64,000 bases of DNA from Protonemura montana (Eukaryota; Arthropoda; Insecta; Plecoptera; Nemouridae). Below the pieces are notes generated by a model that saw only the letters and a program-made list of their open reading frames with translations, did not search any database and had not been told where the DNA came from. Shown in pieces: positions 40,013-47,289 of this stretch. The stretch is from NCBI GenBank assembly GCA_947568835.1, contig OX387604.1:6165360-6229359 (forward strand), in the 5' to 3' direction. The position numbers and the translations under genes were made by a program. Each line of letters starts with the position of its first letter. Positions within the stretch are counted from its first letter, which is position 1.

Positions 40013-40015
40013 TAA
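40013..40015. repeat. Target-site duplication TAA, left
   Basis: TAA directly precedes the left terminal repeat of the Harbinger element and matches the TAA on the right side. Confidence 0.88.
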
Positions 40016-40036
40016 GGCCCGGTTTTACCAGTTCTC
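40016..40036 (+). repeat. Harbinger left terminal inverted repeat (21 bp)
   Basis: Begins GGCCCGGTTTTACC and matches the reverse complement of 43733-43753 at all 21 positions. Identity stops at position 22. Confidence 0.95.
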
Positions 40037-40041
40037 ATATC

Positions 40042-40085
40042 AACTCCCAGTTAGTCAACCCTGAGTTCAGACATAACTCAGAGTT
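40042..40085. promoter_or_regulatory. Left subterminal AACTCNNAGTT motif cluster
   Basis: AACTCCCAGTT lies at 40042-40052, a one-off version AACCCTGAGTT at 40057-40067, and AACTCAGAGTT at 40075-40085. The motif has dyad symmetry around its middle bases. The same motifs occur inside the right end. Placement just inside the terminal repeats is where a transposase or its Myb-like partner would be expected to bind. Binding is inference. Confidence 0.55.
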
Positions 40086-40239
40086 GGAAAGTTTTGAGTT
40101 TTACCACACACATCCATCTTAGATTTAAGTAACTCGCAGTTTGAACATGGCTGTCGATTTTTTTCCTAATGTTGGTACTGATCAAGCGGGATTTGAAGCT
40201 AAAAACGTCACGTGACATACTGTTATTTTTACATTGAAA

Positions 40240-41638
40240 ATGGCGGAGGTTTTGAAGAAGAAGTGTCGTAGCGACAATTTTACCTTTGAAGACACGAAAA
40301 GAATGATGAAATTGGTTAGAAAGTATGAGACAGTAATAGAATGCAAGAAAACTGACAAATTCACATGGAAACATAAGGTAAGCAAGTACCGATAATCAAA
40401 CATCTATTGAAAATAATTATGCCAGTCATTGGAGATGAAGAAAAAAGTACTGAAATTTATCTAGCAACTGAAATAATTTGTGATAATGTTGTGCCTAATG
40501 TTGACTACACTTGGATTTGCTATTTAAGTAATTATATTTTATTAGAATGATGCCTGGAACAAACTGGCAAATGACTTTAACTCGGGCACAAATAGCCACA
40601 AGTCAGCAGCGTCTCTGCAGTCAAAATTCAAAAACATGAAACGGGACTATCGTGTTTGGGCGGCAAAAAAAAGGCAGTCGCTGTTTGCTACTGGAGGAGG
40701 CCCCATGCAAGATATACCGCCACATCCATTTGCTGACGACATGGAGGCACTTATATCGTTGTCCACACATGGAATCGATAATAAATATGACACCGACGGA
40801 ACCTATTGTGAGTGCAAACATAATAGAATACTGAGTAATTCTCAAGTACGCATACCTACCTTTGAATTTGGGACCAAATTATCTTTTTGTTATCACGCTT
40901 GCAGTGCAGTCTGTCAAGGAAAAGGTACATGGATCCGAAGAGGAAGGTTCGGAGATCGATGAAGATCTAGCTTCGACGCCTCAGGTAAAATAAAACCCTC
41001 TCATTTTCGATTATCAAGAGTAGGTACATAGTTATGTATCTTTATTATAACTATTTATATACAAGTACAATGAAAATTGGAAAGATAAAGGAAATGCAGC
41101 TTACCAAGAAAAAATGAAAATTGGGCTGCGACAGAACTCGTAGATGTAGCCCACTGCCTTCGTTAGTTACATGAGATCAGCCATCGGGTAGCAGGCACAC
41201 AGCTACAATAGGTAATCATGCATCTTTTATTTCCAACAATTAACTTTATTGTGATTTGTGAGACACATTTTCTTGATATGTGGCTCTGATATAGATCCAC
41301 AGAAGCAGAAATCAATATTCAAAGCTGGAACAAACCGACCATCATTAAAAGCCTTTGCCAAAAGCAAACCTGGATCAGTGAACGCAGACAAATATGCAGC
41401 ACTTGCTGCAAAGAAACAAGAACGTGTTGCTCAAGAGATTAAAATACTGGCAGAGAATCAAAAATTGAAAGTGGAGAAACATAAACAAGAAACCGAATGT
41501 TTTAATTTACAAATAATGAACATGAACAGTGTCCAAGCAATGTTTGAGGAGAAACATAAGAGAGAAATGAAGTTATTAGATTTGCAAATAAAATCTCAGG
41601 AGATGGATATCGAAAAGAAGAAGAAAGAAAATAAATGA
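40240..41638 (+). CDS. Harbinger Myb/SANT-like DNA-binding accessory protein (4 exons)
   Basis: The proposed exons are 40240-40377, 40546-40807, 40905-40984 and 41303-41638. All introns are GT-AG, with donors GTAAGC, GTGAGT and GTAAAA. The joined frame gives 271 residues. Residues about 12-99 form a Myb/SANT-like domain: tryptophans at 43, 50 and 84, a basic KxxxMKRDY stretch near 75-81, and TGGGP at 95-99, which is typical of the Myb_DNA-bind_5 type. Residues 135-155 are acidic. From about 175 to the end there is a long charged coiled-coil rich in K, E and Q. Known of the family: this second Harbinger protein binds element ends and helps import and recruit the transposase. The ATG at 40240 is in context aaaATGG and begins MAEVLKKK. 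A separate 22-codon upstream ORF at 40147 ends at a TGA before it. Exon junctions are my inference from frame and splice consensus. A host relative with this domain would be MSANTD3, but the location inside the element decides the call. Confidence 0.86.
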
Positions 41639-41692
41639 AACGTCCGGCAAAGAAATCACTTTGGCTGTAATTTCACTTTCAGTGCAGATTTA

Positions 41693-41698
41693 AATAAA
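41693..41698 (+). terminator. Polyadenylation signal of the Myb-like gene
   Basis: AATAAA lies 55 bases after the stop codon of the Harbinger Myb-like gene, a normal position for a 3' end signal. It is a short motif in AT-rich DNA, so chance is possible. Confidence 0.5.
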
Positions 41699-41831
41699 TA
41701 TATTGGAAATGTTGTCTGTTAATTGTTATGCGTCAAAAATTGCCTTGGCAAATTTGCAAAATTTTCACAACTGGTTTCTTATTGAAAGAAGGAGGAAATG
41801 TGTAAACATGGAAAACCCCATGTCAAAATGT

Positions 41832-43150
41832 TCAATTTAGGAGAGCTTGAAAATGGTTCTGGATAAGGTTTTGCCGCATAGCCATGTCCTCATGCACTTC
41901 GGGCAGATTTTCTGGTATGATTTGATCTTGCTCAATGTTCACATCTTGGCCAAGTTCAGGATCAGGTGGAGGAAGGGCTTCTTCAGCATCGCATGCCATA
42001 TTGTGAAGGACAGCTGTGGCAACGATGATGGGGAGGACGTGGTCAACATGGACCTTCATTCCAACGGACAATATGGGAAACCTCCGTTTCCACACACCAT
42101 ATTGTCGTTCCACTACGTTTCTGGTACGGATTTGGGATTCATTGTATAGCTGCTCGGCTTGGGTGGCAGGATTGCGGAGTGGAACTAGCATGTAATTGCT
42201 AGAAGTGTAACCGGAGTCTCCAAGGATGAAGCCACCATTCATCTCTCCTCTGTCAAAACGGCCCTTAACTGCCGAATTGTTAAATATGGTTCGATCGTGA
42301 GTTGAACCAGGCCAGCGGGCCACAATATCCATAATTCGAAGATTTGGAGCAGAAATAGTTTGGACGTTTATTGAAAACAATCCCTTTCGATTCCTGAAAG
42401 TTTCGGCCTGGTCACCACCTGGATTGTGATATCATAAAGAATCAAAGATAAGTAAATAGGATTGCTTAAACTTACTGGTAAGTGGGGATGAAACTGTTTC
42501 GGAATGTAAGTGTAGCATTTGTGATAGATAACGTAACTACCTACCATGCAAAGCACGTCTTATAATACCAAGAGCAATGCTAGGGAAGCAAGACTGCAAA
42601 ATGTAAACTTTACTAACCATTATCTACTTTCTATGCTTACTTACTTACCTACTGATTGTATCTTGATATGGGTGCAGTCTATCACGGCTACTACTTTTGG
42701 AAACCTTGCGATGGCGTAAAAATTCTGCTGTAACTCTTCAAACTCCTCGGGAGTTGCTGGGAAACGTATCACATCACGGCCCAAGCTGGCTATAGCTGCG
42801 GTAACTTGATGAATAATGACGCATGCTGTGGATTTGGTTATTCCTGCAAAATCCCCAATGGCAATCAACATAGTTCCTAATGCATAAAACCTTAAAGTCA
42901 ACAAAAGACGATTTATAGGTGACACTGCATAGTTAAAATCGGAAGGTGCCGAAATTTCAGCTTCAATTTGGTTCAGCAATTGCAACACAGTAGGCTTGGT
43001 TAGGCGAAACCGAATAAAAAATTCTTCGTCGTTCCAAACGTTGAAATTGTCTGGTCGGGGACGAATTCTTCGTGCTGCTCGTCCACCCGCTGCAATGTTT
43101 GCCATAATCTCGTCTTCTTCATCAGACTCATCGTCTGTCACACCATACAT
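41832..43150 (-). CDS. Harbinger transposase, HARBI1-like DDE nuclease (2 exons)
   Basis: Exon 1 is 43150-42649 and exon 2 is 42418-41832, with a 230-bp intron whose donor is AG|GTAAGT and acceptor CCAG|G. Joining restores a split glycine codon and the family motif GGDQAETFRNRKG. The product is 362 residues, close to the usual size of HARBI1-type proteins. The N-terminus is acidic (DDESDEEDE). A helix-turn-helix-like segment lies about residues 83-115. The DDE_Tnp_4 core has D158 in VIDCTHIK, D235 in LGDSGY and E271 in NVVERQYGVWKRRF, a 35-residue D-to-E gap. AVLHNMA follows near 297. It cuts and joins element ends. A 5' untranslated intron may end at TCTTGTAG, with the exon starting at 43160. 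The gene runs towards the Myb-like gene. No obvious AATAAA follows the stop on this strand before 41640. Confidence 0.94.
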
Positions 43151-43638
43151 GTTGAATCAGCTACAAGACAGTAACAGAATATTACTTTACTTCCAGTCTT
43201 GACAGAAGCCCACATAGGCAGTAGAGAACTAGAAATCTTTAGATATGCCAAGACTGGCAATAACGATAGATTTATTATCATGTAATAATGTCATATATTA
43301 CCTGTCTTGCTATCAGCATAGAAAAATAAGCCTTCAGACTTCAAACAAACATCAGTAAAGTTCACAAAGCAAATTGGGCGTGAGGTCTGTGTCATATGCC
43401 AAACGGACAAGTGTCAACACCAAATGGGAGGTTATGTATCACTCTTTACAAATGGCGGTATTCTTTCGAACACGGAATTAGGATTCCAGATATCTTTCTT
43501 GATTCACGGTGATTAATTAAACACTTGCACTGGTTTTTAAAGCGTCAATAATTTTTATTTCACTTGCAAACATTTGATGTGGTGTATGTCAACCTCGAGT
43601 TATCTCTCTTGAGCGCCAGTCGAAGTACGAGTTAAGAC

Positions 43639-43700
43639 AACTCAGAGTTGGGTGGCCAACTCCAAGTTAAAAATAATGGTAAAACGCCTAACTCCCAGTT
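43639..43700. promoter_or_regulatory. Right subterminal AACTCNNAGTT motif cluster
   Basis: Three copies lie within 115 bp of the right end: AACTCAGAGTT (43639-43649), AACTCCAAGTT (43658-43668) and AACTCCCAGTT (43690-43700). The first and third are identical to motifs in the left cluster. Confidence 0.55.
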
Positions 43701-43732
43701 TTAACCTAAATCGAACTTTAAGTCTCAGATAG

Positions 43733-43753
43733 GAGAACTGGTAAAACCGGGCC
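43733..43753 (-). repeat. Harbinger right terminal inverted repeat (21 bp)
   Basis: Ends GGTAAAACCGGGCC and is the exact inverted copy of 40016-40036. Confidence 0.95.
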
Positions 43754-43756
43754 TAA
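43754..43756. repeat. Target-site duplication TAA, right
   Basis: TAA directly follows the right terminal repeat. A three-base match could be chance, but it sits exactly at the ends of the 21-bp inverted repeats and is the sequence this family prefers. Confidence 0.88.
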
Positions 43757-46734: not shown

Positions 46735-47125
46735 TCCTCACAATTTATAATCATATTGATTGATGAGCGGTGTTTATTGACGCACTGGTCTGATGGCGTC
46801 GATGAATGAGTGGATGAAGATGAGGATTATGATAAACCTAAGCTAGCCTAGAAGGGATGAGGGGAAACCCGATGCCGCAAGTAGCCTACTCCTGTCGAAG
46901 AGCACTAATGGCAGTTCCAAAAGACAGTACAAAGCGAACAACAAGATTACTCAACAAATCCATGCTGTTGAGAGGTGACGGCGAGTGACGTTGTTGTACT
47001 AACATCAATTCCTCCAATCTCTCTCTCGAACAGAACTGGTCATGAGTTTGATGGTCATCCATCTAATACCTGACCCAGCGCAGTGTTGCTTCACTTCGGT
47101 GATCTTACGACAACCGGTGTTTCCA
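46735..47125 (-). mobile_element. 5S rRNA-derived SINE, copy 2
   Basis: The head on the - strand (47121-47053) keeps GATCACCGAAGTGAAGCAAC and TTAGATGGATGACC and is closer to insect 5S rRNA than copy 1. The body shares the CTCCAATCTCTCTC, CAAATCCATGCTGTT, TAGCCTACTCCTGTC and GGATGAAGATGAGG blocks with copy 1 in the same order and orientation. Both copies end near CCTCACAATT. This is a 5S-class (SINE3-type) element; it makes no protein and would need a LINE for mobility. Confidence 0.75.
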
Positions 47126-47149
47126 ACTCGCAAAACTGTTCGGTTAAAA

Positions 47150-47289
47150 ATCATCTACCACACGTTCTTATCACCTCACACAGGTTCTAATAATCTACCA
47201 CAGGTTCTAATAATCTAACATAGGTTCTAACCATCTAACACAGGTTCTAATCATCTAACACGGGTTCTATTCATCTCCCACAGGTTAAA
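47150..47289. repeat. 20-bp minisatellite, 7 units
   Basis: Seven contiguous units of exactly 20 bp, consensus ATCATCTAACACAGGTTCTA, starting 29 bp after the second 5S-derived SINE. There are no spacers. Confidence 0.93.

Follow-up and report, generated by a model that had tools for sequence, protein, structure and literature searches.

The window, a 64,000-nucleotide stretch of the genome of the plecopteran Protonemura montana (contig OX387604.1, positions 6,165,360 to 6,229,359), contains at positions 40016-43753 a PIF/Harbinger transposon with two genes, one for a Myb/SANT protein (here called ORF1, after open reading frame, ORF) and one, in the opposite orientation, for a transposase. From this copy alone it had originally been predicted to be an apparently intact, possibly autonomous element. 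Comparison with its sister copies suggests membership in a young family that moved recently, and derivation from a full-length 4029-bp form by internal deletion, with mobilisation in trans; we give this reading a probability of about 0.68. The features of the element are the following, with the basis of each in brackets.

40013..40015, no strand: left target-site duplication (TSD), TAA (sequence inspection, copy alignment, flank comparison)
40016..40036, plus strand: left terminal inverted repeat (TIR), 21 bp, perfect (sequence and genome 21-mer search)
40042..40141, no strand: left subterminal AACTCNNAGTT cluster (40042, 40075, 40131), candidate Myb-protein sites (motif count)
40240..40377, plus strand: Myb/SANT gene (ORF1) exon 1 (ORF list, Pfam Myb_DNA-bind_5)
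40546..40807, plus strand: ORF1 exon 2, second half of the Myb/SANT domain (Pfam)
40905..40984, plus strand: ORF1 exon 3 (splice reading of the copies)
41174..41177, no strand: junction of the 291-bp deletion, with loss of exon 4 and the first part of exon 5, 2-bp microhomology GA at 41175-41176 (copy alignment)
41181..41211, plus strand: ORF1 exon 5 remnant, in frame if the acceptor-like ATCAG before 41181 is spliced (splice options)
41295..41638, plus strand: ORF1 exon 6, with its canonical acceptor at 41295 and, for the 271-aa frame, an acceptor at 41303 (splice options)
41832..42418, minus strand: transposase exon 2, carrying D235 and E271, DDE_Tnp_4 (ORF list, Pfam, relative comparison)
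42649..43150, minus strand: transposase exon 1, start codon at 43150, carrying D158 (ORF list, relative comparison)
43639..43700, no strand: right subterminal AACTCNNAGTT cluster (43639, 43658, 43690), candidate Myb-protein sites (motif count)
43733..43753, minus strand: right TIR, 21 bp, perfect (sequence and genome 21-mer search)
43754..43756, no strand: right TSD, TAA (sequence inspection, copy alignment, flank comparison)

The element is a member of the PIF/Harbinger superfamily, ordinary in kind and with an ordinary kind of deletion. The perfect 21-bp ends and the TAA duplications of the original prediction were found at 40016-40036 and 43733-43753, with TAA on either side; including neighbouring bases, the inverted repeat measures 30 nt at 93%. 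When the genome (258.5 Mb, 34 contigs) was searched for the 21-mer with up to two mismatches allowed, it was found at 15 places, 14 of them perfect and one with a single mismatch, and the reversed control pattern at none. No companion miniature inverted-repeat transposable elements (MITEs) with this TIR were detected genome-wide at the same tolerance. Tourist-like MITEs are short, non-coding and present in high copy number, whereas the window element is 3.7 kb long and coding, and no further TIR ends were seen at up to two mismatches. The motif AACTCNNAGTT occurs six times in the two 260-bp ends, three times near each, and is absent from the inner 3218 bp. In 2000 Markov-simulated sets of 520-base ends its mean count was 0.003 and its maximum 1, a descriptive figure, the motif having been chosen by inspection of these same ends. 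The clusters are candidate binding sites of the ORF1 protein.

Eight copies of the family were found in the genome and compared over 3.5-4.0 kb. Three have the 3738-bp form: the window copy (C16:6205375), C5 (C5:7793182) and C13a (C13:3542705). Three are complete 4029-bp copies: C12 (C12:249424), C14 (C14:8358756) and C16b (C16:14716798). The remaining two are also of the 4029 type, C13b (C13:11989417), which has gained an insertion of 2.4 kb and lost 68 bp, and C13c (C13:15578750) without its first 207 bases. The original prediction had named high divergence of all copies as evidence against a live element, but only 11 variable sites, indels excluded, separate the eight, with pairwise differences of 0-7 (mean 0.11%). 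No difference separates the window copy from C5 in 3738 bp, or C12 from C16b in 4029 bp. For the seven copies other than C13c, the flanks (1.5 kb; 500 bp for C13b) showed no mutual similarity at E 1e-5, indicating separate insertions, so that segmental duplication does not explain the identity of the copies. The original prediction is borne out in so far as the element is of the PIF/Harbinger type, its family is very young and an identical copy, C5, lies at an unrelated site. The insect mutation rate is about 3e-9 per site per generation; at this rate, the absence of differences in 2 x 3738 bases places the separation of the window copy from C5 at roughly less than 130,000 generations (95%). 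With the deleted 3738-bp form present at three unrelated sites, recent mobility of the lineage of the window element is well supported.

Matching TAA or TTA duplications flank six of the seven copies that have both ends. The exception, C13a (L011, C13:3542705-3546442), has TAA on one side and TTA on the other, and both its empty paralogues read TTA, so the left duplication is the changed one, at its middle base. A point mutation or heteroduplex repair after insertion could account for the mismatch. Empty sites were sought for seven of the eight copies with joined flanks as query, the best 40 of 359 candidates being scored. Among these, the C12 site gave 12 full-length matches at 100% and the C14 site 13 full-length matches at 99-100%. 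Clean unoccupied paralogues, with 100% identity along the entire joined flank, are thus known for these two long copies. Junction-spanning matches to the C13a site were found at 99% over 136 of 217 bases and, at a second place, at 96%. A junction-spanning empty site was also found for C13b, whose insertion lies about 21-24 bases inside the end of an element of another Harbinger family (family B, see below). Five empty places, representing four sites, were read back, and each carries a single TTA.

Some of these sites have features of their own. The C12 copy (L010 flanks, C12:249424) lies inside a repeat of which at least 12 other copies are identical over the 218 matched bases. Ten of the 12 are located within 0.9 Mb of a contig end and the remaining two are on C3, which suggests a subtelomeric or telomere-targeted repeat. 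The insertion of about 2.4 kb at L015:2525-4928 has inverted ends, long but imperfect (GGGTCATTCCATGT...), and, apparently, a 6-bp duplication (CCTTGG); it contains no ORF of 80 aa and reads as a non-autonomous DNA element.

The transposase model comprises two exons encoding 362 aa, with the stop at 41832-41834. It matches Pfam DDE_Tnp_4 above the cut-off (E 2.1e-31), and the predicted catalytic residues D158, D235 and E271 are all present in the two-exon protein. The window copy and C5 have N143 and H291, where the other six copies have K and R; the C13b transposase also differs at residue 152. Against four relatives (three family-B loci and L044) the ratio of nonsynonymous to synonymous differences per site (pN/pS) was 0.226-0.239, with synonymous sites saturated. 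The low ratio indicates that coding function was maintained in the lineage until recently, before the present burst. No solved structure matched the transposase in a phmmer search at E 0.001. Viral carriers were looked for in viral_contigs with six short patterns drawn from the peptide of transposase exon 2, a scan that reaches close relatives only; no match was found.

The long and the short copies differ by a single 291-bp block, located after window position 41174-41176. In all five long copies ORF1 has six exons with GT-AG joins and an open frame of 350 aa. The Myb/SANT domain is divided between exons 1 and 2; long-form ORF1 matches Myb_DNA-bind_5 with E 1.5e-16, and exons 1 and 2, which the window copy shares, each match separately. 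Exon 4 (166 nt) lies wholly within the 291-bp block, together with about half of exon 5, of whose 63 nt the window copy keeps 31. The prediction of an intact element is therefore not borne out: sister copies have the exons that it lacks, and it is best read as an internal-deletion derivative.

It had to be considered that the block was gained rather than lost, the long form having arisen when 291 bp were inserted into an originally 3738-bp element. In favour of this, there are no more than two alleles, and the short form offers a frame without a stop. However, the block is coding, has consensus splice sites and is in frame with its neighbours on either side, and a 306-base query over it (E 0.01, very common words skipped) found the five long copies and nothing else in the genome. 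Exon 4 encodes NWCTYSPNMLKQPLHKAL, with the motif W..Y....L.Q..H.AL, and DWTIYNVDMLRQPKHAAL-type stretches are found in relatives between the Myb and the C-terminal exons, collinear with exon 4. When ten relative loci were scanned, six matched the motif at E below 0.01; in L045 and L046 the stretch is present with a 1-bp indel, and L048 and L052 had no Myb-gene match at all. The eight loci with the stretch represent two families, one made up of L044 and L049 (90.6% identity) and the other, family B, of L045, L046, L047, L050, L051 and L053. None of 200 shuffled exon 4/5 peptides reached E 0.01, the best scoring 0.024. Insertion into a shorter ancestor is hardly credible in view of these data. 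That the block is ancestral and was lost in the short form is well supported, and the junction shows a 2-bp microhomology. A mobile insert as the source of the 291 bp was likewise rejected, on the missing match elsewhere in the genome, the in-frame coding sequence with splice sites and the counterpart in relatives.

The deletion has consequences for the splicing of the window ORF1. If exon 3 is spliced to exon 6 at the canonical acceptor, 41295, the frame shifts and soon meets a stop, whereas the acceptor at 41303, eight bases inside exon 6, gives 271 aa without a stop. From its count of four introns, the latter was probably the join used in the original prediction. The claim that two spliced genes read through GT-AG joins thus stands in so far as both are readable, ORF1 with 271 aa; the ORF1 join, however, needs an acceptor inside exon 6. 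A second in-frame option uses the ATCAG acceptor before 41181 and includes the exon-5 remnant, giving 284 aa. In both products the Myb/SANT domain is complete and the exon-4 motif missing.

PIF/Harbinger transposition requires both proteins (PMC2836001; PMC9710019), and in the members studied ORF1 attaches to the ends and to the transposase, which it carries into the nucleus (PMC9710019; PMC2836001). Localisation of the rice proteins in yeast was unchanged by co-expression (PMC2836001), so the nuclear import step may not be general. In Medicago, deletion derivatives, including elements without orf1, have been described, and their proliferation was ascribed to abortive gap repair (PMC2213677). 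A comparable course of events may be proposed for the window element. The gap left by an excision would have been incompletely refilled, abortive repair at the 2-bp microhomology producing the 291-bp deletion, and mobilisation of the deleted form in trans would have followed, with long copies as the chief source of ORF1 and transposase. The ORF1 protein would bind the subterminal AACTCNNAGTT clusters and bring the transposase to the ends, and the transposase would cut and rejoin at TTA/TAA targets. In the three complete long copies both genes have open frames; the most parsimonious assumption is therefore that long copies supply ORF1 (and transposase) to short ones, and mobilisation in trans by long copies would be the likeliest mechanism. 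The window copy may still supply transposase, since it retains all three DDE residues. In yeast, excision and insertion are more frequent for smaller PIF/Harbinger elements (PMC10288884); under this size effect a reduction by 291 bp would matter little.

Several observations weigh against derivation by deletion and movement in trans. In a separate query with the flanks of the window copy, C5 and C16b, no empty site was found for any of the three among the best 40 of 272 candidates. The same candidates included both own flanks of each copy at 100%, nothing further for the window copy and C16b, and for C5 otherwise only partial matches of 74-85% within an old repeat. The exon-4 motif matches are short alignments (E 4e-4 to 5e-3) in two families only. 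Furthermore, gene conversion could have spread the deletion among existing insertions without any transposition of the deleted form. The few differences available for tracing leave room for such an event, and the short copies share, besides the deletion, one intronic base (G at window position 40835, A in all five long copies). On the other hand, the window copy equals C5 over the whole element including both ends, and conversion tracts would need to have covered it completely; we regard this explanation as very improbable.

The shortened ORF1, with its whole Myb/SANT domain and two in-frame options (271 or 284 aa), is a further point of this kind, as to judge from its sequence it may still work. 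The 3738-bp form would then be autonomous, exons 4 and 5 being dispensable, with either exon 6 entered at the shifted acceptor or the exon-5 remnant included, and the short ORF1 delivering the transposase. Presence of the short form at three unrelated sites, two of its copies being identical, and an intact Myb domain and transposase are what such an element would be expected to have. Nevertheless, the lost stretch holds a motif that two further Harbinger families of this genome possess. A join of exon 3 with the acceptor at 41295 breaks the frame, and to stay in frame the short ORF1 has to use acceptors that are not ancestral. We regard autonomy as rather unlikely for the short form; for the window copy, too, it is the less likely and no longer the simplest reading. 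It is also conceivable, with a likelihood scarcely above that of gene conversion, that the short form acts as a self-encoded modulator or repressor, its ORF1 binding the ends without the exon-4 block, and spreads by means of active transposase plus the altered ORF1. The KP repressors of the P element offer a comparison for such a role.

A deletion derivative mobilised by fuller copies, which we consider the probable identity of the window element, has close counterparts among known systems. With the two-gene elements zebrafish Harbinger3_DR and rice Ping/Pong it shares TTA/TAA 3-bp duplications, short TIRs, a DDE_Tnp_4 transposase and a separate Myb/SANT protein. Repeated short motifs near both ends are also common to these systems, binding having been shown for Harbinger3_DR only. 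In contrast to them the window family is low-copy and resides in an arthropod, and part of the Myb gene is deleted in the window copy. The Medicago truncatula derivatives (PMC2213677) similarly kept their ends and lost their interior, with fuller copies in the genome, but the loss in the window copy amounts to only 291 bp and both its genes are partly or wholly coding. From single-ORF Harbinger elements of the Spy type, which lack a distinct Myb protein (PMC9179366), the window element differs by its separate Myb/SANT gene. HARBI1 and the domesticated insect PIF genes LPLG1/2 have a homologous transposase (PMC9710019). LPLG1/2 are single-copy and without TIRs or TSDs (PMC9710019), whereas the window element is multi-copy and mobile. 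Nor is it a domesticated gene of the HARBI1 type, single-copy and lacking TIRs and TSDs, as eight copies with TIRs are present.

Family B, represented by L047 (3609 bp), is a separate family with the same two-gene arrangement, a related TIR (GGGCCGGTTTTAC...) and AACTC/GAGTT clusters near both ends (in L047 five half-sites near each end and six in the interior). The transposase protein of L047 is 68-70% identical to that of the window element over the two exons, and the family-B ORF1 retains the exon-4 motif. With L047, L046, L050, L051, L053 and L045 on C2, C13, C4 and C15 it constitutes a second young Harbinger family: L046, L050, L051 and L053 are 99.4-99.8% identical to L047, and L045 94-97%. 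Two copies on C15, about 97 kb apart, have the same 274-bp loss in the transposase gene, which may represent another deletion derivative or a segmental duplication.

Two unrelated observations were made. At 47029-47286 of the window, on the minus strand, lies a 5S rRNA match (47.3 bits, cut-off 38) directly adjoining a tandem repeat (20-bp unit, 6.9 copies), which may together represent a short interspersed element derived from 5S. Locus L054 (C4:5760925-5762262) corresponds to C34:3504-4841 and is a mitochondrial stretch within a nuclear contig. Its cox1 score equals that of the mitochondrial contig, and the neighbouring 1542-base part differs at 3 sites; either the insertion into the nuclear genome is very recent or the assembly is at fault. 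On this nuclear copy, as on the mitochondrial contig (L060), the tRNAs stand in the order I-Q-M, and on L054 Leu(UUR) is located between cox1 and cox2. This arrangement is ancestral for Pancrustacea, to which it assigns the host, and it differs from the M-I-Q order of ditrysian moths, so that a lepidopteran host was rejected.

The case calls for caution: even where the splice sites of a single copy look plausible and its frame is clean, the copy need not be intact, and sister copies are required to judge this. The window element is useful as a natural deletion experiment on ORF1. With a young family, identical copies and a naturally occurring loss of a block of ORF1, it becomes testable which part of ORF1, beyond the DNA-binding domain, is needed for movement.

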